Under the pieces are notes generated by a model. That model did no database searches, was not told the origin of the DNA, and saw only the letters and a program-made list of their open reading frames with translations. A program made the translations under genes and the position numbers. A DNA stretch of 62,579 bases from Nevskiaceae bacterium (GTDB lineage Bacteria > Pseudomonadota > Gammaproteobacteria > Steroidobacterales > Steroidobacteraceae), in contig VEQP01000015.1 of the NCBI GenBank assembly GCA_018883185.1, positions 1 through 62,579 on the forward strand, given 5' to 3'. This document shows positions 4,923-62,295 of this stretch, piece by piece; the first letter of the stretch is position 1; the number at the start of each line of letters is the position of its first letter.

Positions 4923-5117
4923 GTGACGGCGCGCAAGTCGTTCCTGCTGCGGATGGATCCGGCGCTCTACGCGCAACTGGAGCGCTGGGCCGCTGACGAA
5001 TTTCGCAGCGTGAACGGACAGGTCGAATTCATCCTGCGTGACGCCCTGCGCAAGCGCGGCGGTGAGCCTGCTGGCCATCCGGCAAACGAGACCCGGCAGG
5101 ACGATGATGCGATCTGA
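4923..5117 (+). CDS. Arc-like ribbon-helix-helix DNA-binding protein
   Basis: 64 residues with a GTG start 4 bp after the SPFH stop. The N-terminal strand KSFLLRMDPALYAQLERWAADEFRSVNGQVEFILRDALRKR fits the Arc/MetJ fold: beta-strand, helix A starting DPALYAQLE, helix B around SVNGQVEFILRDAL. The tail is short and polar. Automatic annotation often labels such proteins HicB-like antitoxins, but no toxin gene lies nearby. Its 3' end overlaps the transporter gene by 14 bp. It is probably the autoregulator of this operon acting at the palindrome at 3880-3895; this is inference. Confidence 0.8.
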   Translation: MTARKSFLLRMDPALYAQLERWAADEFRSVNGQVEFILRDALRKRGGEPAGHPANETRQDDDAI

Positions 5118-6879
5118 GGCAGGGGCACGGGGTTTAGGCGGCTGGTTTGCCGTTGGGGTATTGCTCGCCGCGTACACGGTGTCGTTTCTCGATCGGCAGT
5201 TGCTGACCCTGCTGGTGCAACCCATCAAGGCAGATCTCGGTCTCAGCGATACGCAGATCGGCATCCTCCAGGGCCCTGCGTTCGCGCTCTTCTACGCCAC
5301 CATGGGCTTGCCGCTCGGTTGGCTCGCGGATCGCATCAACCGCGTGCACCTCATGGCCGTGGCCATTGCGTTCTGGTCGTTGATGACGTTTCTTTGTGGT
5401 TTCGCTACCGACTACACGCATCTGCTGTTCGCGCGTTTTGGTGTCGGTTTCGGCGAGGCGGCGCTCGTGCCGGCTGCGGTGTCGTTGCTCGCGGATCTGT
5501 TCAAACCCGAAAAGCGCGCGCTGCCCGTGAGCGTTTTCACCTGCGGCCTTGCGGTGGGCTCGGGGCTAGCGCTGATGCTGGGTGGCAGCTTCATCGCCTT
5601 TGCCGAGCAGGGGGCGCGTGAACTACCGATCGTGGGTGAATTCTTTGCCGCACAGGCTCCTTGGCAAGTGGTCTTCATGCTCGCCGGGCTCGTGGGGCTG
5701 CCGGTGGCTGCGTTGATGCTGGCGCTCGCTGAGCCCCGAACTGTGGCGGTGGCGCAGAGCGCACCGCTGCTCTCGGCCGTATGGGATCACCTGCAGGCTC
5801 GAGGCGATTATTTCCGTCCGCTGTTGGCCGCCATGGCAGCACTCTTTGTCGTGACCACGGCGCTATCGGCTTGGTTGCCATCAGTGCTGATTCGGGACTT
5901 CGGTTGGACGGCAATCGCCACAGGCGGAGCGCTGGGCCCTGTGATCCTGTTCGGCGCCTTGATTGGCAACCTCGCCGGTGGTGCCCTCGCCACGTGGCTG
6001 GCGGCACGCGGGCGTGTCGAGGCAACCGTGCTCACCATGTTCATGGGTGCCAGCATCATGGTGCCCGCGGCCATCCTGGCCTCGGCCGCGGCATCGCCTG
6101 AGTGGCTGCTGGGTATCGCGGCGGTGTTGTACCTCGCGATGGCCGCGACCTTCGGAGTCGCTTCGCTCGCCTTCGTCGAAGTGACCCCGGCACAGTTACG
6201 CGGCCAAGTGGTCGCCATCTATTTGCTGTTCGCCAACTTGCTCGGTCTCATGCTGGGTCCGCCGGCGGTCGGCGTGTTCACCGACAGCGGTCTGCCGTTG
6301 CTCGCTCCTGTGGGGCATGCACTTGCGCTCGTGATGGTGCTCGCGGGTCTGCCTGGCTTGTGGTGGCTCTGGCGAGCGCTGCAGCGTCGCGCCTCGGTGG
6401 CGGCGGCAGTCGCGCTGCTCGGTGTCGCTGCGGCTCTGGGTGGATGGGCTGCGCCAGTCGCTTCGGCGGCGGCGCCCGCTTCGGCCGCGGCACCCGCCTC
6501 GGTCAGCGCCCATGCTGCTCTCGAGATCCGCGAGGCGTGGCTGCGCCCATCACCGCCTGGAGTGCCCGTCGGCGCGGGCTACATGACGATCGTCAATAAC
6601 GGTGCGGCGGCCGACGAACTGCTCGACGTTGCTACCTCGCGCGCCTCGATGGTGCAGGTGCACGAGACGCGCATGGAGCAGGGCGTTATGCGGATGCGCG
6701 AACTAGAGGAGCTCGTGATACCGCCGCGCAGCCGCGTCGCATTGGCGCCGAATGGCACGCACCTGATGCTGATGGGATTGACCGACCCGTTGCGGGTCGG
6801 TGAGAAGGTGCCCGTCAGGCTGCGCTTTGCGCGCAGCGGCGAGCGTACGGTGATCTTCGAGGTGCGCGAGCCGCGTTAA
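5104..6879 (+). CDS. MFS transporter fused to a C-terminal PCuAC copper-chaperone domain
   Basis: 591 residues from ATG 5104, with GGCAGG just upstream. Residues 1-427 are a 12-helix major facilitator of the spinster-like type (SFLDRQ in TM1; GWLADRINRVH after TM2). Residues 428-469 are a hydrophobic stretch plus an Ala/Pro-rich tail that look like a signal peptide. Residues 470-591 are a PCuAC (DUF461) domain whose ligands fit H-X10-M-X21-H-X-M exactly: H520, M531, H553, M555. Twelve helices end in the cytoplasm and the thirteenth would place PCuAC in the periplasm, where such domains bind Cu(I). The reading frame is uninterrupted across the junction. The transported substrate is unknown; coupling to copper is inferred from the domain. 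Confidence 0.87.
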   Translation: MMRSEAGARGLGGWFAVGVLLAAYTVSFLDRQLLTLLVQPIKADLGLSDTQIGILQGPAFALFYATMGLPLGWLADRINRVHLMAVAIAFWSLMTFLCGFATDYTHLLFARFGVGFGEAALVPAAVSLLADLFKPEKRALPVSVFTCGLAVGSGLALMLGGSFIAFAEQGARELPIVGEFFAAQAPWQVVFMLAGLVGLPVAALMLALAEPRTVAVAQSAPLLSAVWDHLQARGDYFRPLLAAMAALFVVTTALSAWLPSVLIRDFGWTAIATGGALGPVILFGALIGNLAGGALATWLAARGRVEATVLTMFMGASIMVPAAILASAAASPEWLLGIAAVLYLAMAATFGVASLAFVEVTPAQLRGQVVAIYLLFANLLGLMLGPPAVGVFTDSGLPLLAPVGHALALVMVLAGLPGLWWLWRALQRRASVAAAVALLGVAAALGGWAAPVASAAAPASAAAPASVSAHAALEIREAWLRPSPPGVPVGAGYMTIVNNGAAADELLDVATSRASMVQVHETRMEQGVMRMRELEELVIPPRSRVALAPNGTHLMLMGLTDPLRVGEKVPVRLRFARSGERTVIFEVREPR

Positions 6880-7658: not shown

Positions 7659-8791
7659 TGGAAACCTTAAGACAACTCTACAAGCCCGCGCATGATGAAG
7701 CCGCGCGTCAGCGCTTCGTCGGCGTACTCAAGGGCTTCGCCAACGGCACGCTCGAGCAGCAGCTTGCGGCACGCTACGAGTCGACTCTGCGCCCGGCGTT
7801 CTCTGCAGCGAACGGCCGTGCAGCCCCTGCTACGCGCGACGAGGCGCGGCCGTTGTTCGAGTCGGATCCGCTGTATCAGCTTTGGGGTTCGATGGTCTAT
7901 GCCTCGCAGGGTTTGATGTGGCAGACGGTCGGCACGACCTGCCGGCGCATTGGGCCTGCCTTCGAGGCCCGCGCCGCGAGCCTGCAAAGCGCACCGCGAG
8001 GCTCGTTGACACTCGATCCCGCACTCGAGCTGCCGCAGCCGATCGCGCAGGTGGAGATCCACCGACAACCCGGGGGTTACTTCCACGAGTCGCACTCCCA
8101 AGATCTGCATGCTGCGCTGATCTATTTCGGCACGCTTGAGCTGTACCGGGCCGCCAAGGGGCTCACGGCCAACGCGCCGGTGGGCGAGCCCGGTATCGGT
8201 CGATTCATCGCGCAGATCGTCAAGCGGCGCTACCCCAATCTCAAGCCTCGACGCATCCTCGATCTCGGCTGCGGGCCAGGCACGGAGACCATTGCCTATC
8301 AAGAGGCTTTCCCAGACGCTGAGGTGCACGGACTCGATTTGTCGGGGCCGTTCGTACGCTTCGCCCACGCCTGGGCCGAGGAGCGCGGTTTGGCGATGCA
8401 CTTTCGCCAGGCTGACGCGCGTGCCACGGGCTATCCGGACGGGCACTTCGATCTGATCGTCTCGCATATTCTGTTTCACGAGACCTGGCACGACGTTGCG
8501 CCGGGCATCTTTGCCGAGGCGCGGCGCATTCTGGCCCCCGGTGGCGTGTTCCTGAACGCCGACGTGCCCTACCAACCCGCGCGGATGCCGATTCCGAAGC
8601 AGGTCACGAACGACTGGCAGGTACGCAACAACGGCGAGCCGTTCTGGACGGGTTTTGCCGATACCGACGTGCCGGCTGTGTTGCGCAAGGCAGGCTTTGC
8701 GGCGGGCGAGATCGTGGCGGATTACGAGCCGCTGGGTGCCGGTCACTACTATTTCTTTGGTGCGGGTCCTGCGGGCGTGGTGCAAGCATGA
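7658..8791 (+). CDS. Class I SAM-dependent methyltransferase, family copy 1
   Basis: 377 residues. The C-terminal half is a Rossmann methyltransferase: motif [10 protein letters not shown] (DLGCGPG at 202-208), acidic motif II HGLDLS, motif [13 protein letters not shown], then [15 protein letters not shown]. The N-terminal 190 residues are helical and not recognised; they include EIHRQPGG at 133-140. [17 protein letters not shown] near the end recurs in the copy at 53650, and GGEPFWRE in the copy at 10609. The downstream helical-protein gene overlaps its stop in an ATGA. No substrate can be assigned. An alternative ATG at 7646 would add four residues. Confidence 0.82.
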
Positions 8792-9069
8792 GCGAGGCTC
8801 CGATCATGGCGCCCACGGCCGGGCCCGATCAGCCGCTTTCAGCAGCCAACGTCTCGCAGTTGGTTGCGGTAGCGCTTCGCCTGGCCATGGAAGTCAGCAC
8901 GCTGCGCGAGCGTCTTCGTACCCAGCAGTTGCTGCTCGAACAAGCCGGGGTGCTCGCACCCGGTGCGGTTGACGGCTTCGTGCCGCAGGGCGAAGAGTTG
9001 CAGGCGCGGCTCGCCGCGGATCGCGAACTGATCGAGGCGCTGGCCAGCGATATTCGAACCCAGGGTTGA
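8788..9069 (+). CDS. Small helical partner protein, copy 1
   Basis: 93 residues, not a named family. After a low-complexity start it is predicted to be almost entirely helical, with heptad-like LRLAMEVSTLRERL, the turn AGVLAPGAVDGFVP and a second helix ELQARLAADRELIEALASDI. Residues about 23-88 align by eye with the small protein at 11649: both read long helix, then G-[FV], then D-[AG]-F-x-P, then a second charged helix. The gene overlaps the methyltransferase stop by 4 bp, so it is co-translated and may be a stoichiometric partner. No signal peptide or membrane segment is seen. Confidence 0.75.
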   Translation: MSEAPIMAPTAGPDQPLSAANVSQLVAVALRLAMEVSTLRERLRTQQLLLEQAGVLAPGAVDGFVPQGEELQARLAADRELIEALASDIRTQG

Positions 9070-10571: not shown

Positions 10572-10609
10572 TTGCTCGCAGGGGGGGCAAGAGGTGTAGT
10601 CTGCGAAAA
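10572..10609 (+). promoter_or_regulatory. Putative promoter of methyltransferase copy 2, short or no leader
   Basis: TTGCTC (10572-10577) and TAGTCT (10597-10602, preceded by TG) are spaced 19 bp. The -10 ends 6 nt before the ATG at 10609, so the mRNA would be leaderless, as proposed for the copy at 7658. The inverted repeat CTTGC...GCAAG (10571-10591) overlaps the -35. The region also serves the divergent aldehyde dehydrogenase gene. Confidence 0.35.
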
Positions 10610-11652
10610 TGGAATTCCAACTCAAGCAGCGCGGACGCGCCTCACTGCACTTCCTCTCCGACCTTGCGGTATCGACCTCGCGGTTCAAGTCGCGTATCGA
10701 TGCAGACATCAAGGCTGCAGGCCTTGATGAGGCTAGCTTGGCGGACGATCTCGACGAGCGTCTGCGCCAAGTCGATGCCGCACTGGCTGAATCGCCCGCT
10801 GCGGCGGCGCTCGCGGCACTCACCGAATACAGCGGCGTCAACCACGGGCGCGTGGCGGCTGCGGCGTTTGATGAGGTTCGGGGCGATCTCGAGCCGCGTC
10901 TTAAGGCTTTGATGCAGGGGCCGACCACTATTGAGCCAATCCCGGGCGAGCGTAGACCGTCCTATGCGGATGCCGCTTGGATACACCGCACCACAGGCGG
11001 CTGGGACGGACACGAGTACCAAGGTTTCATCCACGGCGAGTTGATTCATCGCGAATACGTGGCACGCAATTATCCAGGCGATATCTTTGCACAGCGCCGA
11101 CAGATCCTCTCGGTACTGCCACGGCGTGATTATCAAAGAATTTTTGAGATCGGTACCAGCAGCGGTCATTACACGCTGCAGATTGCCGCGGAGTTTCCGC
11201 AGGCCGAAATCTGGGGCTGTGACCCGTCGCTGCGCATGCTCGAACAGGCGCAGCGGGTCGCCAACGAGCGTGGCTTGCGCTGGCGCTTGTTTCACGGCTC
11301 TGCCGACGACACAGGTCTCGAGGCGGGTAGCGTGGATCTCGTCACCTCCTACATCGTTCTGCACGAGATTCCGCGCACCGCCATCCACACCCAACTGCGC
11401 GAGGCGTATCGGTTGTTGCGGCCGGGTGGCGATATCCTGTTTTCCGACGTCACGCGTTACGCGGCACTCAACAAGGCCGGTGTGCGTTGGGCGGAGTACA
11501 ACGCCGTGCACGGTGGCGAACCCTTCTGGCGCGAAAGTGCGAGCCTCGATCTGGCCGACGCCGCGCGCGCGGCAGGCTTCGTCAATGTGCGCTCCGAGGG
11601 TTTCGGCGGCGGCATTTATCCTTGGTTCGTTTACGGACACAAGGCGTCATGA
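10609..11652 (+). CDS. Class I SAM-dependent methyltransferase, family copy 2
   Basis: 347 residues. Motif I is FEIGTSSGHY (179-188), followed by WGCDPS (motif II), SVDLVTSYIVLHE and RLLRPGGDILFSDV. The N-terminal 160 residues are helical and unrecognised, with IHRTTGGW at about 125-132 in the place where copies 1 and 3 have [16 protein letters not shown] near the end matches their GEPFW. It is the most divergent of the three copies. Its stop overlaps the next small gene by 4 bp, repeating the arrangement at 8788. Substrate unknown. Confidence 0.82.
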   Translation: MEFQLKQRGRASLHFLSDLAVSTSRFKSRIDADIKAAGLDEASLADDLDERLRQVDAALAESPAAAALAALTEYSGVNHGRVAAAAFDEVRGDLEPRLKALMQGPTTIEPIPGERRPSYADAAWIHRTTGGWDGHEYQGFIHGELIHREYVARNYPGDIFAQRRQILSVLPRRDYQRIFEIGTSSGHYTLQIAAEFPQAEIWGCDPSLRMLEQAQRVANERGLRWRLFHGSADDTGLEAGSVDLVTSYIVLHEIPRTAIHTQLREAYRLLRPGGDILFSDVTRYAALNKAGVRWAEYNAVHGGEPFWRESASLDLADAARAAGFVNVRSEGFGGGIYPWFVYGHKAS

Positions 11653-11921
11653 GTATCGAGTTGACCCCGAATGACTCGGCAGTGCGGGCCGACCGCGCGA
11701 CGCAACTCGCACTCACTCTCGCCCGCGAGTTGTGGGTGGTCAAAGATCGACTGTTGGTGCTTGAGGCCGTGCTGGCCAGTGAGGGTTTTGCCGCGCTAGG
11801 CGCGAGAGTCGATGCGTTTCAGCCGGATACTGCGACGCGTGCCGCGATCGACGCTGAGCGCAAGCGTTTTATCGCTGAGGTGACGGCGGCGCTGGACTCG
11901 CCGCCTGACCGGCAGAGTTGA
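11649..11921 (+). CDS. Small helical partner protein, copy 2
   Basis: 90 residues of unknown family, predicted mostly helical: ALTLARELWVVKDRLLVLEAVLA, then GFAALGARVDAFQPD, then a charged helix AAIDAERKRFIAEVTAAL. It parallels the protein at 8788 in length, helix pattern, central turn and position behind a methyltransferase of the same family. Start ATG 11649 overlaps the methyltransferase stop. The last 53 bp overlap the 3' end of the convergent motB gene. Confidence 0.72.
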   Translation: MSIELTPNDSAVRADRATQLALTLARELWVVKDRLLVLEAVLASEGFAALGARVDAFQPDTATRAAIDAERKRFIAEVTAALDSPPDRQS

Positions 11922-51958: not shown

Positions 51959-52035
51959 GCGCCCGTAGCTCAGTTGGATAGAGCATCAGGCTTCGAACCT
52001 GAGGGTCGGGAGTTCGAATCTCTCCGGGCGCGCCA
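51959..52035 (+). tRNA. tRNA-Arg (anticodon TCG)
   Basis: A 77-nt cloverleaf almost identical in acceptor stem, D-arm and T-arm to the tRNA at 3772. GCGCCCG pairs with CGGGCGC, G discriminator, encoded CCA. The anticodon stem CAGG/CCTG encloses CTTCGAA, giving anticodon TCG. The binding-protein gene starts 35 bp beyond it. Confidence 0.97.
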
Positions 52036-52069: not shown

Positions 52070-53653
52070 ATGAAGCGATGGCACAAGGCAGTATGGCTGG
52101 TAGCTTGGGTGCTGGCGGCATGGCCGACCGCGCACGCGGCTGAGCGCGTCTTGCATCGGGTTGGTACGGACGATCCGTCCACCATCGACCCGCACAAGGC
52201 CTCTTTCCCCGGCGAGCAGTTGATCATCGTCGATTTGTTCATGAGTCTCACGACCGTGGGCATGAACGGCCGACCGATGCCGGGGGCGGCGGAGTCTTGG
52301 ACCATCAGCCCCGATGGTCGCGTTTATACCTTCACGCTGCGCGCCAACTCCCGCTGGTCGGACGGCAAGCCCATGACGGCGGAGGATTGGGTGTGGTCCT
52401 TCCGACGCATGCTTGACCCCAAGACCGCTTACCCGTTGGCGTCGCGATTGTTTCCGATCCGCAACGCTCGCGAGGTGGCAATGGGTCGGCAACCACCAAC
52501 CTCCTTGGGCGTGCGTGCCATCGATGCCCGAACCTTGCGCGTGGAACTCGACAATCCGACGCCGTATCTCACCGACGTGATGATGACGGCAGCCATGCCC
52601 GCTCCCCGCCACGTGATCGAAAAGCATGGTGCCGCGTGGTTGCGCCCGGAAAATTTCGTCAGTAATGGCCCGTTCGTGCTCGACGAGTGGCGACCCAACG
52701 GCCACGTGCGTGTCAAGCGCAACCCCTACTTCTGGGGGGCTGAGCGTGTGAAGCTCGACGCCGTGTATCACTATCCGCTCGGCAACCCGGCCACAATGCT
52801 GCGCCGTTTCGAGGCGGGCGAACTTGATCTGCTCATGGTGGTGCCGCCCGAGCGCCTCGAGGAGATGCGCAAGGCCGGTAACAAGTCGGTTCGCATCGCG
52901 CGCGGCATCGCCAATGAGGTCATCGTCTTCAACACCCGCAGCGGGCCGACCGCCGACTTGCGTGTGCGACGGGCCCTTTCGATGCTGATCGAGCGAGAAG
53001 TCGTGGCGCGCAACGTTATCGGCTTTCCGGGGGTCGAGGCTTACTCGTTGGTGGCACCCGGCGTGCTGAACTACGGCGAGGCCGCTAAACCCGATTTCGC
53101 CAGTTGGAATGCCGAGCGTCGTTTGAGCGAAGCACGCCGCTTGCTCGCCGCCGCAGGCTACGGCCCTGACAAGCCCTTGCGGTTGCGGCTTGGCTTTCCG
53201 AGCACCGAACTCAATCGCAAGGTCGCTGTGGCGGTGGCGGCCATGTGGGGTCGAGCCGGAGTGCGCGCCGAGTTGCAGCAAAAGGAATCCAAGGCACTCG
53301 TCACGGAGGTCGGCTCCGGCAACTTTGATGCGGTGCGCGCGATTTGGGTGGCTTCGGCCAGTGACCCGTATTCCTATCTCGAGCGCTTGCTGTCGACGGG
53401 TACGGCGCTCGGCATGAACACTTCGGGTTACGCCAATGCACGTTTCGACGCCAAACTCGAGCAGGCAGCCAAAGAGAGCGATGTCGCGCGGCGCGCGGCG
53501 ATCCTGCGTGAGGCGGAGGCGATAGCTCTCGCCGAGCAGCCTGTTGCGCCCGTGTATTACATTGTCGGGCGGCGGCTCGTCGCGCCGCGGGTGCGCGGCT
53601 TCAGCGACAATCCGCGCGGGCTGTATCCAAGTTGGTTGCTGAGCGTGCAATGA
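52070..53653 (+). CDS. Peptide/opine-type ABC solute-binding protein (SBP_bac_5), copy 1
   Basis: 527 residues with a Sec signal peptide (MKRWHKAVWLVAWVLAAWPTAHA). Family features are DDPSTIDPHKA, SPDGRVYTFTLRANSRWSDGKPMTAEDWVWSFRRML, NGPFVLDEWRPNGHVRVKRNPYFWG and LRVRRALSMLIERE. OppA/DppA-like proteins bind peptides, but no permease genes are in this operon. ATG 52070, 35 bp after a tRNA. The stop overlaps the methyltransferase start in ATGA. First gene of a six-gene operon. Confidence 0.9.
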   Translation: MKRWHKAVWLVAWVLAAWPTAHAAERVLHRVGTDDPSTIDPHKASFPGEQLIIVDLFMSLTTVGMNGRPMPGAAESWTISPDGRVYTFTLRANSRWSDGKPMTAEDWVWSFRRMLDPKTAYPLASRLFPIRNAREVAMGRQPPTSLGVRAIDARTLRVELDNPTPYLTDVMMTAAMPAPRHVIEKHGAAWLRPENFVSNGPFVLDEWRPNGHVRVKRNPYFWGAERVKLDAVYHYPLGNPATMLRRFEAGELDLLMVVPPERLEEMRKAGNKSVRIARGIANEVIVFNTRSGPTADLRVRRALSMLIEREVVARNVIGFPGVEAYSLVAPGVLNYGEAAKPDFASWNAERRLSEARRLLAAAGYGPDKPLRLRLGFPSTELNRKVAVAVAAMWGRAGVRAELQQKESKALVTEVGSGNFDAVRAIWVASASDPYSYLERLLSTGTALGMNTSGYANARFDAKLEQAAKESDVARRAAILREAEAIALAEQPVAPVYYIVGRRLVAPRVRGFSDNPRGLYPSWLLSVQ

Positions 53654-54756
53654 CACAAGACGTTTACGTACCGACGCGCGAAGAGCGTGTTCGACAGGAG
53701 TTCGTGCTGGGCCTGAAGCTGCTCGCCAACGGCGCAGTGCAGCGGCGTGTGCGGGAGGAGTATCGCGGTCGCGTATTGCCGCAGCTCACGCAGGCGCAGG
53801 GCGCGCCACCTTCCGAGCGGCGTCAAGTGGCTCCGGCGCTGCTGCGTACCGAGGCCTATCGGACCTGGGCGGTGCTCACCCACCACTCGCAGTCGATGAT
53901 GTGGGACGCCGTCGAGAGCACGACGCAGCGCGTGTTGCCCTCGGCTGAACAGCGTTATGCAGCGCTGCGTGCGGCGCCGCTGCAGCGTCGTGGCAGCTTG
54001 CAGCTCGACCCCACGCTCGCCGTCCCCCCGCCCATCGGCAACACCGAGATCCACCGGCAACCGGGCGGTTTTACGGGGCGCACCGATGTCGAGGACCTCT
54101 CGCCGGGTTTGCGTTATATCGGCGCGTCGCTCATCTACGGGGCGGGCAAGGGGCAGGAGCATGCGACGGGCGACTCGCGCGCCAATCTGCTGCTGCACGA
54201 GTTGCGCCGTCGTTACCCTGACCTTGCACCGCGGCGGATTCTTGATCTCGGCTGCGGCATCGGGGTGCATTCGCAAGCGATTGCGCTGGCGTTTCCCGAG
54301 GCGGAGTACCACGGTGTCGACGTGGCTGCGGGGCTGCTGCGCTTCGCGCATTTGATCGCCGAGGAGCGGGGCATCGCGCTGCACTTGCACCAGCGCGATG
54401 CGGCGCGCACCGGTTTCGAGCCAGGCAGCTTCGATCTCGTGCTCTCCAACATCTTCTTTCACGAAACCAATTCGGCTCGGTTGCCACAGATTCTGCGCGA
54501 GTGCCACCGCGTGTTGCGCCCCGGCGGCGTGATGCTGCACGTCGATGTGGCTACCCAGACCAGCCGACACGGATTCGATGATCAATTGATGAACGATTGG
54601 CAGGTGCGTTGGAATGGCGAGCCGTTCTGGAGTGGTTTCGCCGAGCGGGATATGTTCAAAGAAATCGTCGCTGCCGGCTTTGCGCCGGAACGCAGTTTCG
54701 CCGAGCACCTCAATCGGCCAGGCGGTGCCAGCTACGTGTTTGGTGCGCTCGCCTGA
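53650..54756 (+). CDS. Class I SAM-dependent methyltransferase, family copy 3
   Basis: 368 residues. Motif I is ILDLGCGIG (DLGCGIG at 199-205), followed by YHGVDVA, SFDLVLSNIFFHE and [22 protein letters not shown] at 133-140 and NDWQVRWNGEPFWSGFA near the end are shared with the copy at 7658, which is closest; the same helical N-terminal half is present. No small helical partner gene follows here; an OYE-type oxidoreductase gene does (1-bp overlap). Substrate unknown. Confidence 0.83.
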   Translation: MTQDVYVPTREERVRQEFVLGLKLLANGAVQRRVREEYRGRVLPQLTQAQGAPPSERRQVAPALLRTEAYRTWAVLTHHSQSMMWDAVESTTQRVLPSAEQRYAALRAAPLQRRGSLQLDPTLAVPPPIGNTEIHRQPGGFTGRTDVEDLSPGLRYIGASLIYGAGKGQEHATGDSRANLLLHELRRRYPDLAPRRILDLGCGIGVHSQAIALAFPEAEYHGVDVAAGLLRFAHLIAEERGIALHLHQRDAARTGFEPGSFDLVLSNIFFHETNSARLPQILRECHRVLRPGGVMLHVDVATQTSRHGFDDQLMNDWQVRWNGEPFWSGFAERDMFKEIVAAGFAPERSFAEHLNRPGGASYVFGALA

Positions 54757-56735
54757 TGTCGGAAGCGTATCCGCGGCTGTTCTCGCCGCTCGAACTTGCC
54801 GGCATGCGCTTGCGCAATCGCATCGTGCACGCCTCGATGTCGACCCGTTACGTGACCGGCGGTGCGGTGACCGACCGACTGATTGCCTACTTTGCCAACC
54901 GCGCGCGGGGCGGTGCCGCGATGCTGGTCACCGAGCCGTTGAACCTATTGCCGCGCCAACGCAACCCGCAAAAAGTCAGCGTGCTCGATCCGGCCAATGC
55001 GCCGCGATTGCAGCGCTGGGCTGCCGCCGTTCGCGCGCAGGATTCGCACTTGATCGCACAGATCCAGGATCCCGGCCGTGGGCGGCATCAGCCCGGTCGC
55101 AGCCACGAGGCCATCGGTGCCTCGCCGCTGCCGGATGATCTCAGTTGGACTGTGCCGTATGCGCTGGCCACCGAAGAGGTTGCAGCGCTGTCGGTCGATT
55201 TCGCGCACGCGGCGCGCATCCTGCAGGATGCCGGTTTTTCGGGTGTAGAAATTTCGGCAGGACATGGGCATCTCTTCCACCAGTTTCTCGCGGCGCGCTC
55301 AAACGTTCGCGAGGATCGCTACGGCGGTGAACTCGCCGGCCGCGCGCGTCTGCTGCTCGAATTGCTCGCCGAGTTGCGTCGGGTCTGCGGCAAGGGATTC
55401 ATCATCGGTGTCAAATTGCCGGGCGAGGATGGCATGCCGCAGGGCATCGACCTCGACACAGCAGCCCGGATCACCGCGCTCGTGCACGAGAGCGGCACCG
55501 CCGATTATTTGACCTGGTGCTGGGGCTCGCACTCCTCGACGCTCGATTGGCATCTGCCCGATATGCATGGATCCCGCGAGCCCTATGTCGCGAAGATTGC
55601 GGCGCTCGCCCGGCATGCACCGGGAGTCGCCATCGGCGCGCTCGGCTTGATCACCGATCCGAACCAAGGCGAGCGCTTGCTCTGCGAGGGAGCAGCGGAT
55701 CTCATCATGCTCGGCCGGCCACTCGTCACCGATGCAGCCTGGGGTTTGAAGGCCGCGAGCGGCCGAGAGGCCGACATTCGCTACTGCGTCTCCTGCAACA
55801 CCTGTTGGGGTGCGATTGTCGGTGGCAGCACGCTGGCCTGTGACAATAATCCGCGGGTTGGCAGCGAAAACGAGGTCGATTGGCAACCCGAGCGGGCGAC
55901 GATTGCAAAGAAAATCGTCATCGTCGGCGCTGGGCCCGCCGGCATGGAGGCGGCTTGGCTTGCTGCCAGTCGAGGTCACGAGGTCACGGTATTCGGCGCT
56001 TCCAGCGATGTGGGCGGTAAGACTCGTCTGCATGCGGCCCTGCCGGGTGGTGAGAGTCTCTCCAGCGTTTACGACTATCAGCGTTTGCGCGCCGACAAAG
56101 CCGGCGTTCGTTTCGTACTGGGGATGCGCGCGCAGGCGAGCGACGTGCTTTCGCTGTCGCCCGATGCCGTCGTGCTGGCGAGTGGTTCGACGCCGGCGTG
56201 GCCCGCGTGGTTGCCCGCCGAATATCGCGACGCCGAGTGGTTTCCCGACGTGCGTACCCTCGCGGCACGATTGCTCGGACGGCGCACGCGGGAAGAGGGC
56301 GTTGCCGTGCTCGTTGATCAAGACCACACGGCTTTTACTTACGCCACCGCGGAATTGCTGGCGCGCTGTTTCTCCAAGGTTTTGCTTGTCTCGCCGCGCG
56401 AGGGTGTCGCGGCCGAGGAGCCGCTCGTCAATCGGCAGGGTATTCAGCGTCGTTTGGCCGCTCTCGGTGTACAGCTGCAGCCGTGGAGTGAGCCGCTGAT
56501 CGACGAGGGCATCGCCGAGGGCCGACTGCGCTTGCGCGATGTGCTCGGGCGCGACGAGCGCGTGATCGAGGGGGTGGTGCTCCTGACCCATGCCACAGCG
56601 CGTGTGCCTGATCTAGATGTACTGACCGGGTTGCGTGCGGCCGGGGTACCCGTGCACCTCATCGGCGATGCCAAGGCACCGCGTTCGCTGTTGATGGCGA
56701 CCAGCGAGGGCTACCAGCTCGGGCTGCAACTGTGA
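54756..56735 (+). CDS. Old Yellow Enzyme-type NADH:flavin oxidoreductase with FAD/NAD domain
   Basis: 659 residues. The N-terminal TIM barrel (LFSPLELAGMRLRNRIVHASMSTRYV; SGVEISAGHGHLFHQFLAARSN) holds the FMN site; CVSCNTC with a later Cys binds 4Fe-4S as in 2,4-dienoyl-CoA reductase and trimethylamine dehydrogenase; the C-terminal part has KIVIVGAGPAGMEAAWLAASRGHEV for FAD or ADP. The whole resembles the dienoyl-CoA reductase/TMADH family, so a reductase or an amine/ether-cleaving dehydrogenase role is possible. It overlaps both neighbours. Confidence 0.87.
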   Translation: MSEAYPRLFSPLELAGMRLRNRIVHASMSTRYVTGGAVTDRLIAYFANRARGGAAMLVTEPLNLLPRQRNPQKVSVLDPANAPRLQRWAAAVRAQDSHLIAQIQDPGRGRHQPGRSHEAIGASPLPDDLSWTVPYALATEEVAALSVDFAHAARILQDAGFSGVEISAGHGHLFHQFLAARSNVREDRYGGELAGRARLLLELLAELRRVCGKGFIIGVKLPGEDGMPQGIDLDTAARITALVHESGTADYLTWCWGSHSSTLDWHLPDMHGSREPYVAKIAALARHAPGVAIGALGLITDPNQGERLLCEGAADLIMLGRPLVTDAAWGLKAASGREADIRYCVSCNTCWGAIVGGSTLACDNNPRVGSENEVDWQPERATIAKKIVIVGAGPAGMEAAWLAASRGHEVTVFGASSDVGGKTRLHAALPGGESLSSVYDYQRLRADKAGVRFVLGMRAQASDVLSLSPDAVVLASGSTPAWPAWLPAEYRDAEWFPDVRTLAARLLGRRTREEGVAVLVDQDHTAFTYATAELLARCFSKVLLVSPREGVAAEEPLVNRQGIQRRLAALGVQLQPWSEPLIDEGIAEGRLRLRDVLGRDERVIEGVVLLTHATARVPDLDVLTGLRAAGVPVHLIGDAKAPRSLLMATSEGYQLGLQL

Positions 56736-58216
56736 GGCGGGCGTCGCCCCTGACTGTGGCACTCGAAGGAGTGTCACTGCACCGCGATGAGCGACACATT
56801 CTCGATCGTATTCACTGGCGACTCGAGCCCGGGCAACGCTGGCTGCTGCTCGGCGGCAACGGCGCCGGTAAGACCCAATTGCTCAAACTGATCGCTGGGG
56901 CGGTCTGGCCCGATCCGACGCCTACGGCGCGGCGTCGATATCTTTGGCGCCGGCAGTGGCACGAGACGCCGCAACAACTGCACGAACATATCGCTTACGT
57001 GGGTCCTGAGCGGCAGGATCGGCACGAACGGCATGGTTGGAATTTTACGGCGATCGAAGTCGTGGGTACGGGCTTGAGCCGTAGCGACATTCCGCAGGGT
57101 CCATTGCGCTCCCGTCAACGAGTCGCTGCGCTCGGCTATCTGCGTACGCTCGGCATTACGCGCCTCGCGGCGCGAAAGTTGCTCGAGTTGTCTTACGGGC
57201 AGCGTCGTCTCGTGCTGTTGGCGCGCGCCCTGGCCACGCGGCCGAGTTTGCTGCTGCTCGATGAGTTGCTGGGTGGACTTGACGCGCAGCACCGCGCGCG
57301 GGTGCTGCGTGCCCTCGCGCGTTGCGACATTCCATGGGTGCTGAGCACTCACCGCATCGAGGAGATGCCGCCGTCGACGACGCATGTGGCGCGGCTCGTT
57401 GCCGGCCGACTGCTCGAGCAGGGTCCGCGCTCATCGCAGGTTCCACACCTGACGAGCGCCTCGCGGGTGGGGTCACGGCCCGCAGGTTCGTCTCGACTGA
57501 AATCTTTGGCCCCAGCCGGTCGGTCGCGCTCGGGTGTGCTGGTTGCGGCGCATGGCATCGATGTCTATCTCGACTACCGGGCCGTCTTGCGCGGGATCGA
57601 TTTCACCGTGTGTGCAGGGCAATGTTGGGTGCTCCATGGTGGCAACGGCTCAGGGAAAACCACCTTGCTGCGCGCGCTCTATGGCGATCACCCGCCTGCA
57701 TTGGGAGGACGCATCGAGCGGCGCGGCCTTGTTCCAGGAGTGCCGCTTGAGGTGTTTCGGCGCTGGTGCGCTATCGTCGCCCCGCACCTGCAAAGCGACC
57801 CGCCGGCCCATGACTCCGCGCTCGAGATCGTTGTCAGCGGCCTGCGCTCGAGCATCGGGCTCGATGGAGCCCCGAGCGCCGGCGAGCAGCGCAGGGCCCT
57901 AGGGGCATTAGCCGAGATGGGGCTGCGCGAGTACGCCGGACAACGGCTGCGGGAGCTCTCCTATGGTCAGGCGCGACGGGTGCTGTTTGCGCGGGCACTG
58001 GTGCTGCGGCCGCGCTTGCTGCTACTCGATGAGCCGCTTGCAGGCATCGATGTGGACACCCGGCGCGTGCTGCGCGAGCGCATCGATGCCTTTGTGTCAG
58101 CCGGTGGCACGGTAATCATGAGTAGCCACCATCGGGACGAGTGGCCGCAGCGAACGAGCCACGAGTTGCATCTCGTGGCCGGGCGTACGCGTTATGCGGG
58201 TGTCGTTCGTCGGTAG
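56732..58216 (+). CDS. ABC ATPase with two nucleotide-binding domains (ModF-like)
   Basis: 494 residues from a GTG that overlaps the upstream stop (GTGA). Domain 1 has GGNGAGKT, LSYGQRR and LLLLDELLGGLD; domain 2 has GGNGSGKTT, LSYGQARR and LLLLDEPLAGID. Both signatures read LSYGQ rather than LSGGQ. The two-ATPase, no-membrane architecture matches ModF-type proteins. No ABC permease gene accompanies it, so its role as transporter motor is not shown. Confidence 0.85.
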   Translation: MRRASPLTVALEGVSLHRDERHILDRIHWRLEPGQRWLLLGGNGAGKTQLLKLIAGAVWPDPTPTARRRYLWRRQWHETPQQLHEHIAYVGPERQDRHERHGWNFTAIEVVGTGLSRSDIPQGPLRSRQRVAALGYLRTLGITRLAARKLLELSYGQRRLVLLARALATRPSLLLLDELLGGLDAQHRARVLRALARCDIPWVLSTHRIEEMPPSTTHVARLVAGRLLEQGPRSSQVPHLTSASRVGSRPAGSSRLKSLAPAGRSRSGVLVAAHGIDVYLDYRAVLRGIDFTVCAGQCWVLHGGNGSGKTTLLRALYGDHPPALGGRIERRGLVPGVPLEVFRRWCAIVAPHLQSDPPAHDSALEIVVSGLRSSIGLDGAPSAGEQRRALGALAEMGLREYAGQRLRELSYGQARRVLFARALVLRPRLLLLDEPLAGIDVDTRRVLRERIDAFVSAGGTVIMSSHHRDEWPQRTSHELHLVAGRTRYAGVVRR

Positions 58217-58310
58217 CGACCGGGCAGCGGATGCGGCGGGTCAGCCGCCGGGGTGTAGGAGCCGGCTGCGGCCGATAATGCGGCACGCAGTTCCCCCGCA
58301 GGCGGTGTTC

Positions 58311-59519
58311 ATGAAAAGTTTGGGCGTGTTGTGGTTGGTGGTCTTCATCAGCCTGGCCGGCTTCGGTATCACCACCATCCCGTTCCCGTTCGTCGCCGAG
58401 TCGATGGGTGCCTCCGACTTCTGGAAGACCTTTGGCGGGGCTGGCGTCTTTTCGCTGTTCCAACTCGCCGCGACTCCGCTATGGGGCCGTGCGAGCGACG
58501 CGTATGGTCGAAAGCCCATCCTGATGCTGAGTTCGGCGGGGACTGTGCTGGCATTTCTTTGGTTGGCTTATGCGCCAACCCTGGAATCATTGCTGATTGC
58601 GCGAGCCTTCGGCGGTGCGATGTCGGGAAATCTCGCCGCAGCCTTCGCCTATGCGACCGACGTGACCGACACGAAAAATCGGGCCAAGGGTCTCGGCATC
58701 GTGGCGTCGGCCTTCGGTGTGGGTTTTGCGATTGGTCCGCCGCTTGGCGGGTTCCTCAGCACGCTCGATGCCGTGCCGAGTATGTACTGGCCCGGTTTGG
58801 CCTCAGCCGGATTGTCAGCCATCGCGTTCCTGGGGACGGTGTTTTTGCTCCCGGAGAGTTTGCCGCCGGAGCTGCGTAAGCCGCTCGGCAAGTCGGCCGA
58901 GCCGCCGCCCGAGGGCGAGGCCCGTGGTCCCAAGGTAACGCCGTGGCAGGCGTTTCGCGGCAATCCGGTGCTCATGGGGCTGGTCGGTGCTTCGCTGATC
59001 GTGGCGGTGGCCGGCGGGGCAATGCAGTCGGTGTTTCAGTTCTGGGGTCGCGACTTGTTCGACTATTCATTGCGTGACATCGGACTGCATTTCATGGCGT
59101 TCGCCTTGCTCTCGGCGATCGGTCAGGCGGGACTCATCGGTCCGTTGACCCGACGTTTTGGCGAGAAGCATGTAGCCGTGGCCTCGATTGTCGGTGTTAC
59201 CGTCGGTTTGGCGCTGTTCGCCATGGCGCAGAACGATGCCATGGTCTGGATCGCCATCAGCCTGTTCGGTCTCGCCAACGGCCTCTTTCTACCGGCGATC
59301 AGCAGCCTCGTCTCGTTCGAGTCGGACCCGAAGTCACGCGGTACGGTGATGGGCATGTTCAATGCCTCAAGCAGCGCAGGGCGAATTGTGGGTCCTGCGC
59401 TATCGGGACCGATCTACTTCAAACTCGGGCCTGCCGCGCCGTTCATTCTTTCGGCGATATTGACGGCGATTGGCGCAGTGTTGCTCAGTCGAGCCCATGA
59501 CAAGCCGCCTCCGTCCTGA
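58311..59519 (+). CDS. MFS transporter, TetA-like
   Basis: 402 residues from ATG 58311 (an ATG at 58278 would add 11). The TM2-TM3 loop GRASDAYGRKP and 12 hydrophobic segments mark a TetA/multidrug-type drug:proton antiporter. It follows the ABC ATPase by 94 bp and is followed 19 bp later by the second binding protein, so it is probably a member of the operon and could export the operon's product. Substrate unknown. Confidence 0.88.
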   Translation: MKSLGVLWLVVFISLAGFGITTIPFPFVAESMGASDFWKTFGGAGVFSLFQLAATPLWGRASDAYGRKPILMLSSAGTVLAFLWLAYAPTLESLLIARAFGGAMSGNLAAAFAYATDVTDTKNRAKGLGIVASAFGVGFAIGPPLGGFLSTLDAVPSMYWPGLASAGLSAIAFLGTVFLLPESLPPELRKPLGKSAEPPPEGEARGPKVTPWQAFRGNPVLMGLVGASLIVAVAGGAMQSVFQFWGRDLFDYSLRDIGLHFMAFALLSAIGQAGLIGPLTRRFGEKHVAVASIVGVTVGLALFAMAQNDAMVWIAISLFGLANGLFLPAISSLVSFESDPKSRGTVMGMFNASSSAGRIVGPALSGPIYFKLGPAAPFILSAILTAIGAVLLSRAHDKPPPS

Positions 59520-59538
59520 CCCCCCGATCCTGGCACGC

Positions 59539-61137
59539 ATGCAGCGACGCGATTTCATCCGTCAATCGGTACTTGCGGCCTGCGTCGCGACCGGCTCGGC
59601 TCGTGTGTTCGCCGATTCATCCGGCACAACCCTGCGCCGCTCGCGCGGCGGCACATTGACCTCGCTGGACCCGCACCGTGGCATCTCCGCGACCGATATG
59701 GAGATCAACGCCGATTTATTCGTCGGACTCACGGCGATCGATGCGCGCGGCGCCATTACCCCGGGACTCGCGAGCGAGTGGACAGTGAGCGCCGATGGAC
59801 GACGTTACGAGTTTCGTTTGCGACGTAACTTGCGCTGGTCGGACGGTTCGAGTCTGGATGCTGTAGATGTGGTAGCAAGTTTTCGTCGCATGCTTGCCGC
59901 CGATACCGGCATGTTGCTCGCCTATCGCTACGACGCGATTGTCGGCGCCGAAGGTTTGCGGCGCGGCAAGGCTTCGTCCGCGGCGCTGGGCGTGCGTGCG
60001 GGCGCTGCGCCCGGTACCGTGATCTTCGAATTGCTGCGCCCTGAGACCGACTTGCTGAAATTGTTGGCCGTCGCGTATGTGGTGCCCGTGCGTCTTATCG
60101 AGCGGCTTGGTCGCGACTGGGCGAAGCCGCCCGCCATCGTGGTCAACGGAGCCTATCGCCCGACGAGCTGGGCGCAGAACGGTCGCTTGACGCTCGCGGC
60201 CAACCCGCGCTGGTACGGGGCGGGCGCGCAAGCCATGGCACCGCAGCTCGAATGGATCACGGGTATCGACGATGCCACGCGGCTGCGCCTGTTTCGATCG
60301 GCGGAGCTCGACATCGCGCAGCTCAGCGAGGCTTCGGTCCTGAAGTTGGCTCGGGCTGAACTCGGGTCCTTCCTGCACAGCGTGCCGTTCTACGGTGGCG
60401 GCTGGTTGGGTCTCAATCTTCGTCGTGGCGCGCTGGCTGATCGGCGGGTGCGCGAGGCGCTCTCCCTCGCCATTGATCGCCGGGTGCTTTGCGACAAGGT
60501 CCGTGGACTCGGCGAGCAACCCACCGAGAGTCTGGTGCCGCAGGCCGTCGGCGACTATCCGGTGCGCGCTGCGCCGGCTTATGCCGCATGGCCTATGCCG
60601 CGCCGAGTCGCGGCGGCACGCGAGCTGCTGCGTGCCGCCGGCATCAGCGGTGCACAAACGCTGCGCCTTGTCGGCATCTTTTCTTCGAACCCGCTCACGC
60701 AGCGCACCTTCCTCGCCATCGATGCCATGTGGGCGCCGCTCGGGGTGCGACTTGAGGCGCGGGGCATGGAATCGCGCGCCTATAACACGGCGCTCAATGC
60801 GGGTGAGTTCGACCTGATGGATTACGGCCCGTTCTCCGCTGTGCAAAGCGCGACGAGTTTCATCGGGCGGTTTCAAAGCGGGTCGTTCCTCAACTATTCG
60901 GGTTACGCAGACGCCGAGGTCGATCGTCTGATCTCGACTGCGGAGGCGAGTGTCGAGCCGTCGGCGCGCGCCCGCGGCTATCTCGCCGTGGAGCGGCTGT
61001 TGGTGCGTGATCTGCCGGTGATTCCCCTGTACTCGGGTGTCACGCATCGGCTTGTCGCGGCCCGCGTCCGCGGCTGGGTAGACAACTCCGGTCTCGCTTC
61101 GCCGTCCCAGTTTCTATCGCTTGCAGCGCGCGCATGA
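59539..61137 (+). CDS. Tat-type SBP_bac_5 solute-binding protein, copy 2
   Basis: 532 residues from ATG 59539. The start MQRRDFIRQSVLAACVATGSARVFA carries a twin-arginine RRDFI and hydrophobic core. The mature part has LTSLDPHRGISATDMEINADLFVGLTA, SADGRRYEFRLRRNLRWSDGSSLDAVDV and RVREALSLAIDRRVLCD, matching SBP_bac_5 copy 1 in order and spacing, with the same C-terminal pattern (RLVAARVRGW versus RLVAPRVRGF). Tat export suggests a folded or cofactor-loaded state. No permease nearby. Confidence 0.87.
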   Translation: MQRRDFIRQSVLAACVATGSARVFADSSGTTLRRSRGGTLTSLDPHRGISATDMEINADLFVGLTAIDARGAITPGLASEWTVSADGRRYEFRLRRNLRWSDGSSLDAVDVVASFRRMLAADTGMLLAYRYDAIVGAEGLRRGKASSAALGVRAGAAPGTVIFELLRPETDLLKLLAVAYVVPVRLIERLGRDWAKPPAIVVNGAYRPTSWAQNGRLTLAANPRWYGAGAQAMAPQLEWITGIDDATRLRLFRSAELDIAQLSEASVLKLARAELGSFLHSVPFYGGGWLGLNLRRGALADRRVREALSLAIDRRVLCDKVRGLGEQPTESLVPQAVGDYPVRAAPAYAAWPMPRRVAAARELLRAAGISGAQTLRLVGIFSSNPLTQRTFLAIDAMWAPLGVRLEARGMESRAYNTALNAGEFDLMDYGPFSAVQSATSFIGRFQSGSFLNYSGYADAEVDRLISTAEASVEPSARARGYLAVERLLVRDLPVIPLYSGVTHRLVAARVRGWVDNSGLASPSQFLSLAARA

Positions 61138-61218
61138 TGCATTTCATCCGTTACAGTGGTGGTGTTCTGCCTGGGTAGGCGTGTCAGCTTTCGTAAGCGT
61201 GAATCAATAGGGGGTCCC

Positions 61219-61788
61219 ATGATTCAACTTGTGGTCGGTCTCGTCATCTTCCTCGGTGTCCACTCGGTATCCATCGTCGCGCGGCCGTGGCGCGATGCAA
61301 TGGTGGCGCGCCTCGGTGCGGGTGCTTGGAAAGCCGGGTATTCGCTCATCTCACTGCTCGGTTTTGTGCTGATGGTCGGCGGTTACAGTGCGGCGCGACT
61401 CGAGCCCTCGCTGCTCTACGTACCGCCGGTGGGGCTGCGTCACGTTGCGGGCTTGCTGATGCTGCCGGTGTTCCCGCTGCTGTTCGCGACCTATCTTCCG
61501 GGAAGGCTGAAGCGATGGGCCAAGCATCCGATGCTGGTGGCCGTGAAGTTCTGGGCCTTGGCACACCTGCTCGCCAACGGCATGCTCGCCGATGTGTTGC
61601 TGTTCGGTTCGCTGTTGCTGTGGGCGGTGCTCGATCGCATCTCGGTCAAGCGCCGCGGTGAGGTGTCACCGGCCGCCGAGGGAAAAGTGATCAACGACGT
61701 GCTCGCGATCGTGCTCGGCCTTGCCGTGTACGGCGTATTCGTCATGGGTGGGCACCTGAAGCTCTTCGGCGTCTCACCGTTCGGCTGA
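61219..61788 (+). CDS. NnrU-family membrane protein
   Basis: 189 residues, five hydrophobic segments. MIQLVVGLVIFLGVHSVSI, RPWRDAMVARLG, and MLVAVKFWALAHLLANGMLADVLLFGS carry the family His positions in the membrane. NnrU occurs near denitrification or c-type cytochrome and carotenoid-type genes and may be a heme/quinone-handling enzyme; its function is not settled. ATG 61219 with AGGGGG upstream; no denitrification gene is in the window. Confidence 0.85.
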   Translation: MIQLVVGLVIFLGVHSVSIVARPWRDAMVARLGAGAWKAGYSLISLLGFVLMVGGYSAARLEPSLLYVPPVGLRHVAGLLMLPVFPLLFATYLPGRLKRWAKHPMLVAVKFWALAHLLANGMLADVLLFGSLLLWAVLDRISVKRRGEVSPAAEGKVINDVLAIVLGLAVYGVFVMGGHLKLFGVSPFG

Positions 61789-61815
61789 GTTTTGTCACGA
61801 ATTGCGGAGTTTAGA

Positions 61816-62295
61816 ATGACTGACATACACGACTTTTCTGCCCGCACCATCGATGGGGCGGAGCAATCGTTGGCCACTTACCGCGGTAAGGTTTTGCTGG
61901 TCGTCAACGTGGCCAGCCGGTGCGGGTTCACGCCGCAGTACGCGGGACTCGAGGCGCTGCAGCGTAAATATTCGGATCGTGGCTTTGCAGTGTTGGGGTT
62001 TCCCTGCGATCAATTCGGTGCGCAGGAGCCGGGCGACGAGAACGAGATCAAAAACTTTTGTCGCCTCAACTACGAGGTCAGTTTCCCGATGTTCGCCAAG
62101 ATCGAAGTCAACGGCGCGGGCGCCCATCCGCTGTACGCCCATTTGAAGAGTTCGGCCAAGGGCTTGCTCGGCTCGGAGTCCATCAAGTGGAACTTCACCA
62201 AGTTCCTGGTCGATCGGTCCGGCAAAGTTCTTAAGCGTTATGCGCCGCAGGACAAGCCCGAGGCCATCGCTGCCGATATCGAAGCCGTGTTGTGA
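61816..62295 (+). CDS. Glutathione peroxidase
   Basis: 159 residues. VNVASRCGFTPQYAGLEAL contains the peroxidatic Cys in place of selenocysteine; FPCDQFGAQEPG and KWNFTKFLVD give the catalytic Gln, Trp and Asn tetrad. Cytoplasmic peroxide detoxification with thioredoxin or glutathione. It precedes a gamma-glutamyltransferase gene by 16 bp. Confidence 0.93.
   Translation: MTDIHDFSARTIDGAEQSLATYRGKVLLVVNVASRCGFTPQYAGLEALQRKYSDRGFAVLGFPCDQFGAQEPGDENEIKNFCRLNYEVSFPMFAKIEVNGAGAHPLYAHLKSSAKGLLGSESIKWNFTKFLVDRSGKVLKRYAPQDKPEAIAADIEAVL

Follow-up and report, generated by a model that had tools for sequence, protein, structure and literature searches.

A variable gene run behind a tRNA-Arg gene joins binding proteins with redox and methyl-transfer enzymes in a Nevskiaceae bacterium

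In the genome of a freshwater Nevskiaceae bacterium (assembly GCA_018883185.1), six genes lying directly behind a tRNA-Arg gene bring together two substrate-binding proteins (SBP1 and SBP2), a methyltransferase (MT), an oxidoreductase of the old yellow enzyme type (OYE), a twin ATP-binding cassette (ABC) ATPase (ABC2) and a transporter of the major facilitator superfamily (MFS). Do these genes form one pathway, and was it imported at the tRNA gene? Within the 62,579 nucleotides of contig VEQP01000015.1 (the window), the locus looks like an old set, variable gene by gene around a resident transporter, and not like one newly acquired pathway. With about even confidence, we propose that it is a variable biotransformation cassette ancestral to the genus, arranged around a backbone of tRNA-Arg, MFS, an NnrU family membrane protein and a glutathione peroxidase-like protein (GPx). 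The SBPs would capture a ligand for a shared Opp importer, the OYE would reduce and the MT would methylate, probably in breakdown or detoxification.

The gene run behind tRNA-Arg

The tRNA-Arg (TCG) gene, called by ARAGORN at 51959-52035 (+), is the left border of the locus in relatives. The ATG of SBP1 stands 34 bp past it, so the operon does begin just behind a tRNA, as an earlier sequence-only reading had said. All genes of the run are on the + strand: SBP1, OppA/MppA-like (52070-53653); MT, a class I S-adenosylmethionine (SAM) methyltransferase with an N-terminal helical extension of about residues 1-115 (53650-54756); OYE, a FadH/trimethylamine dehydrogenase (TMADH)-type oxidoreductase with a 4Fe-4S motif (54756-56735); ABC2, ModF-like (56732-58216); MFS (58194-59519); and SBP2, also OppA-like (59539-61137). 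The run extends past SBP2 into the backbone genes NnrU (61156-61788, probable start 61219) and GPx (61792-62295, probable start 61816). Pfam and NCBIfam scans of these eight genes (52070-62292) bore out the identities given earlier for the six: SBP_bac_5 (PF00496) at 280 bits for SBP1 and 194 for SBP2 (gathering threshold 32.4), Methyltransf_25 at 76 bits for the MT (gathering threshold 27), Oxidored_FMN plus Pyr_redox_2 for the OYE, a double ABC_tran for ABC2 and MFS_1 for the MFS. NnrU and GPx matched PF07298 and PF00255.

Read from the DNA, the junctions are overlaps at SBP1/MT (ATGA), MT/OYE (TGATG) and OYE/ABC2 (GTGA), with a gap of 19 bp between MFS and SBP2. The six genes in one direction and their overlaps were therefore as predicted, apart from the start of MFS. 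Its open reading frame (ORF) with the ATG at 58194 overlaps ABC2 by 23 bp; because the MFS calls of relatives are 395-442 aa long, the ATG at 58278 or 58311 is probably the start, and ABC2 and MFS would then lie 61 or 94 bp apart. In comparison with the closest relatives (L009 and L019), dN/dS was 0.028 for SBP1, 0.049 for MT, 0.057-0.059 for OYE, 0.105-0.135 for ABC2 (177 and 312 codons only), 0.040 for MFS and 0.061 for SBP2, after exclusion of two rows (SBP2 of L009 and SBP1 of L019) that were cross-matches between paralogues. These values indicate that all six genes are functional and under strong purifying selection. A promoter and terminator scan gave no excess over shuffled sequence (1 versus 1.8, and 6 versus 9.4), and it is thus no guide to a single transcript, for or against. 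Upstream of the locus, moaA/moeA lie on the opposite strand.

Distribution among relatives of the same genus

We located the site through an anchor, a 121-aa gene left of the tRNA that is present in 49 of 60 related genomes, and compared the DNA on its right-hand side in 20 of the 23 same-genus genomes (G005, G013 and G018 were left out). The tRNA-Arg(TCG) follows closely behind the anchor in 17 of the 20 stretches and lies about 15 kb away in one; the contig ends first in the other two (G008 and G016). SBP1 comes next after the tRNA in nine genomes (G010, G011, G003, G023, G002, G001, G007, G017 and G009; the stretch of G011 is broken off by the contig end), and about 2 kb past it in G012. 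ABC2 was seen in six: G010, G017 and G003 in part, G002 in pieces, G006 and G019. In G014, G022, G020 and G004, the order is tRNA-MFS-NnrU-GPx, without the other five genes. Since MFS directly follows the tRNA in these four, we consider it part of the backbone and the remainder a variable insert. SBP1, ABC2 and SBP2 are each absent from some relatives, and several carry other genes in between, coding for a vicinal oxygen chelate (VOC) protein, a second MFS, a small helical protein, a flavin adenine dinucleotide (FAD) enzyme, an alpha/beta hydrolase or a second MT. Gene order is hence conserved in part of the relatives, as anticipated, without a fixed six-gene set, and the idea of one fixed six-gene pathway has to be given up.

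On a MoeA tree, presence and absence of the MT-OYE block takes two changes, with G021 and G015 (distant OYE, no MT) coded as lacking it. The earliest-branching members of the genus, G012 and G017, have the block, which makes ancestral presence followed by two losses the simpler reading. The OYE tree clusters most rows of the genus, with the G021/G015 pair among them on a long branch and the G017 row outside. Together these results suggest an old modular site rather than a fresh import.

A second set of relatives, L009-L088 (the best 80 of 231), is not independent of the genus set, as eight genomes are shared (L009/G010, L010/G007, L011/G006, L013/G009, L014/G019, L016/G003, L020/G002 and L022/G017). 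Several of its records are irregular. In L020 (12000-13345) the match to the twin ATPase is broken into pieces (53% and 35%), perhaps through gene decay or misassembly, and in L019 (6566-7079) NnrU is divided over two frames. L010 is titled Klebsiella pneumoniae and carries the genes of the same-genus G007, so that the title looks wrong; the titles Planktophila, Janthinobacterium and Bordetella parapertussis (among L038, L041, L077 and L083) are doubtful, judging by OYE tree neighbours only.

The protein families and a possible shared permease

The closest solved structures to SBP1 are OppA and MppA (PDB E about 1e-93). It carries a Sec-type signal and SBP2, 34% identical to it, a twin-arginine-type signal (RRDFIR), both read by eye. 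No permease was found among the eight scanned genes, and a complete Opp importer is thus not part of this operon. Elsewhere, the genome holds six SBP_bac_5 genes and a single OppB (E<=1e-20), which lies on contig C59 (L104, C59:46000-65000) with OppC and two ATPases named OppD and OppF by eye. The nearest own-genome paralogue of SBP1 (47%) is an SBP near these permease genes, and that of SBP2 (45%) is an SBP on C67. Across 24 genomes of the genus, 14 have both SBP and OppB, three have SBP only, none OppB only and seven neither (Fisher 3.5e-4). With no permease adjacent, this paralogy and the joint absence lead us to suppose that the SBPs share one Opp importer. Precedents for a shared permease are MppA acting through Opp and the five binding proteins of Borrelia, as described in excerpts of PMC12136057 and PMC5736914.

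The surroundings of OppB include an SBP, a short-chain dehydrogenase/reductase (SDR), a small partner gene, a TonB receptor, two glutathione S-transferases, HapK and a VOC-like gene. The same cluster also holds two FAD enzymes, as well as a hydrolase that matches chlorophyllase weakly. In another stretch of the genome (L105, 6016-7763), the SBP closest to SBP2 adjoins a VOC-like gene and a nickel/cobalt-transporter-like gene, both assigned by eye.

The MT was correctly recognised as the third family copy in the window: paralogues lie at 7673-8791 (+; 44% identity to the MT) and 10609-11652 (+; 32% over a part), and the genome has 18 in total (E<=1e-30). The family is rare, being present in 6 of 276 genomes of the class. 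A structure model and fold comparison place the core in the small-molecule methyltransferase fold, with long N-terminal helices; here VIA-align re-examined the 1000 chains ranked highest by Foldseek, and its rows mainly cover MT residues 120-368. Residues H135, H271, E272 and E324 are invariant in 47 relatives. None of the best 25 of 39 NCBIfam matches reached its cut-off, and PHROGs matches of MT and OYE pointed to no specific function. In many relatives, a member of the MT family is accompanied by a helical partner of about 100 aa. Both paralogues in the window have one overlapping their stop, at 8788-9069 (+; found by family hidden Markov model (HMM) and alignment, no Pfam match) and 11649-11921 (+; family HMM 42 bits, start read from DNA). 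Among Pfam matches of the partner family, the best was PspB (E 0.0011, 8 of 27 members), and none exceeded its cut-off.

The OYE aligns to the structures of FadH, NCR and histamine dehydrogenase, and has the flavin mononucleotide (FMN) barrel, the pyridine-nucleotide half and the four cluster cysteines of the FadH/TMADH class. Across 82 OYE rows the motif C-x2-C-x2-C-x11-C is conserved, a single row deviating at a single residue, and all 82 have the His that aligns with the FadH His252 region. The active-site Tyr is absent: at the FadH Tyr position, 81 of the 82 rows have His (SGHGH), with a gap in one. We take the FadH residues concerned to be Tyr166 and His252. The invariance at the Tyr position is partly due to selection of the rows, because HGHLFHQF was one of six retrieval patterns; the G021 and G015 rows, which were found by position, have the same His. 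In a Roseomonas relative (43%) the position is Phe, and near this gene an ABC set is annotated with one binding protein, two permeases and two ATPases. The best NCBIfam match of the OYE was mycofactocin OYE2 (TIGR03997, 439.6 of 793.15 bits), under the cut-off, and a mycofactocin system was rejected on this ground.

MT family and OYE recur together in records of Sphingomonadales, Halieaceae and Chromatiales. Of the 50 loci with at least 5 kb on both sides, members of the genus included, 32 have a MT-family gene no more than 5 kb from the OYE. The full count covered 79 loci, the OYE of one locus having been missed by gene calling, and the distances are slightly short because MT and partner positions are stop-to-stop frames. 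In other clades, the two enzymes occur with TonB receptors, VOC, SDR, GntR, FAD enzymes, hydrolases and HapK, and nearby MFS proteins resemble aromatic-acid symporters, below the cut-off.

ABC2 has two Walker A motifs, two LSYGQ signatures and two Walker B motifs, with no membrane part seen; it scored 250 of 459 bits against ModF (NF008186), under the cut-off. A molybdenum link (ModF, moaA/moeA) was rejected on this score and because no ABC2 was found in L010 and L013, although both retain moaA/moeA. The MFS reached 160 of 475 bits against the Tet(A)-type efflux pump NF012174, also under its cut-off. Elsewhere in the window, a 613-aa ORF (5038-6879, +) codes for a fusion, with a MFS transporter at residues 42-408 and a PCu(A)C copper chaperone domain at 497-605.

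Proposed role, alternatives and known systems

In the cassette that we propose, SBP1 and SBP2 would bind an exogenous ligand in the periplasm and pass it to a single Opp-type importer encoded elsewhere. The cytosolic OYE, judging by its cofactor motifs, would reduce an electron-poor double bond or a similar group with NAD(P)H via its flavins and 4Fe-4S cluster, and the MT, from its fold, would transfer a methyl group from SAM to the ligand or a product. The MFS may expel products without being specific to the cassette. For ABC2, the most probable part is an accessory or regulatory one, as a soluble ATPase resembling ModF. Ligand class, permease sharing and the order of reactions are what we infer here. 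The likeliest purpose would be to break down or detoxify aromatic-type compounds from plants or algae, since the MT family, rare in the class, numbers 18 copies in this genome and is elsewhere often clustered with TonB, VOC, SDR, HapK and FAD enzymes. For the capture, reduction, methylation and export suggested by the sequence-only reading, uptake, redox chemistry and methyl transfer remain a fair interpretation; dedicated export does not, with MFS standing behind the tRNA without the other five genes in four relatives.

Several observations weigh against this proposal. The set is not obligate: G006 and G019 have MT and OYE with SBP1 absent at the site, G021 and G015 have an OYE of 49-51% identity alone, and ABC2 was not found at the site in G001, G007 and G009. 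The catabolic neighbours belong to MT and OYE relatives of about 29-70% identity and not to the window operon, and 33 of the 79 OYE loci have no MT family member in the stretch, some stretches being short. As to the permease, the three genomes with SBP and no OppB (G002, G016 and G018) are 81-86% complete, and the OppB of G023, counted as present, is a 66-residue fragment. The joint absence of SBP and OppB amounts to one or two phylogenetically independent contrasts, which makes their co-occurrence suggestive and not proof. SBP and MT counts also rise with genome size (rho 0.55 and 0.65), though less closely than with each other (rho 0.92), and the contrast persists among 16 genomes sized 2.3-2.8 Mb: the four that lack SBPs carry 2-6 MTs, the other twelve 10-18. 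The substrate is not deducible from sequence.

Recent acquisition of a genomic island by integration at this tRNA would account for the position of SBP1 immediately behind it and for the patchy presence among relatives. However, no repeat of the tRNA 3' end was found downstream; the only other match in the window was the other tRNA-Arg, and none occurs in the tRNA-bearing stretches of 18 relatives (1-20 kb, some short at 1-6 kb). There is no integrase among the eight genes by Pfam, a scan that covered the relatives' genes only in part. The GC content of the locus (0.63-0.66) is similar to most of the window, the majority of the genus OYEs cluster, and the two changes on the MoeA tree fit ancestral presence. 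We therefore rejected the island, and with it the acquisition at the tRNA proposed earlier, as highly improbable. A more serious alternative, although in our estimate well short of an even chance, is that unrelated genes came to lie together at a permissive tRNA-proximal site, perhaps in one transcript, without a common pathway. Each part is missing in some relative, four keep MFS without the other five, and VOC, FAD enzyme, hydrolase and second MT genes occupy the site in others. The start/stop overlaps running through SBP1-MT-OYE-ABC2, the recurrence of the MT family with OYE in three other groups and the purifying selection all argue against it.

Neither of two further explanations is likely. 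In a small biosynthetic operon, a methylated small molecule would be made, secreted through MFS and recaptured by the binding proteins. No scaffold-building enzyme is present among the eight genes scanned, MFS occurs without the remainder and the clusters of relatives look catabolic, so we regard it as unlikely. We consider slightly less probable still that the operon serves muropeptide or oligopeptide nutrition, with SBP1 as a MppA-like peptide recycler and the enzymes as bystanders. OppA and MppA are indeed its closest solved structures, but SBP1 reached only 344 of the 947 bits required for the OppA equivalog, and further SBPs, in this genome and in L058, likewise lie near MT or OYE genes. 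Moreover, SBP count tracks MT count across the genus (rho 0.92).

The variable cassette would join three little-known things: orphan OppA-type SBPs with perhaps a single permease between them, a branch of the OYEs whose active site is altered, and a class-rare MT family at 18 copies in 2.8 Mb. Going further, we tentatively suggest, as a doubtful extension, that the MT family and its helical partner of about 100 residues are an uncharacterised two-protein methyl-transfer system, multiplied to about 18 copies in one freshwater lineage, with many copies linked to uptake and redox genes of their own, and with methylation as a routine step in natural-product breakdown. The window operon would then be a version with orphan Opp binding proteins and a His-type OYE that has lost the partner. 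If these MTs do act in catabolism, methylation would have a larger share of bacterial natural-product turnover than we had recognised.

A lignin-dimer pathway was rejected as the named function: the accessible part of PMC4609964 has HapK once among upregulated genes and no methyltransferase or TonB, and that of PMC12997858 names a methyltransferase once, for LigM, with flavin absent. Titles and abstract openings in the literature revealed nothing on this gene combination. The families of the parts are known, and the combination is a new form of biotransformation operon, not a new kind of system. One related system is a cluster on Sphingomonas plasmid pJE1 (L157), which has HapK, MT, a small protein and a FAD enzyme in a row near a TonB receptor, MFS, SDR and GntR; in contrast to our operon, it has no SBP among the listed genes (a table that is possibly incomplete) and it carries other catabolic genes. 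Like ModF/PhrA, ABC2 comprises two ABC modules without a membrane part, but it falls under the ModF cut-off and no modABC is present among the eight scanned genes. The MT is of the same class of small-molecule class I methyltransferases as CouO, NovO, phosphoethanolamine N-methyltransferase and GPP C-methyltransferase, from which it differs in two N-terminal helices of about 40 residues, mostly outside the aligned part, in the four invariant residues and in the frequent small partner gene. With FadH, trimethylamine and histamine dehydrogenases, BaiCD and mycofactocin OYE2, the OYE shares the FMN barrel, the pyridine-nucleotide half, the cysteine motif and the His aligned with the FadH His252 region, whereas SGHGH, with His in place of the FadH Tyr, and the sub-threshold TIGR03997 score set it apart. 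Finally, as in E. coli MppA/OppBCDF and the Borrelia Opp system, several OppA-like proteins accompany one Opp-type permease set, with the binding-protein genes apart; what differs is that the orphans here stand in a run with redox and methyl-transfer enzymes, and that they would share the permease by analogy.

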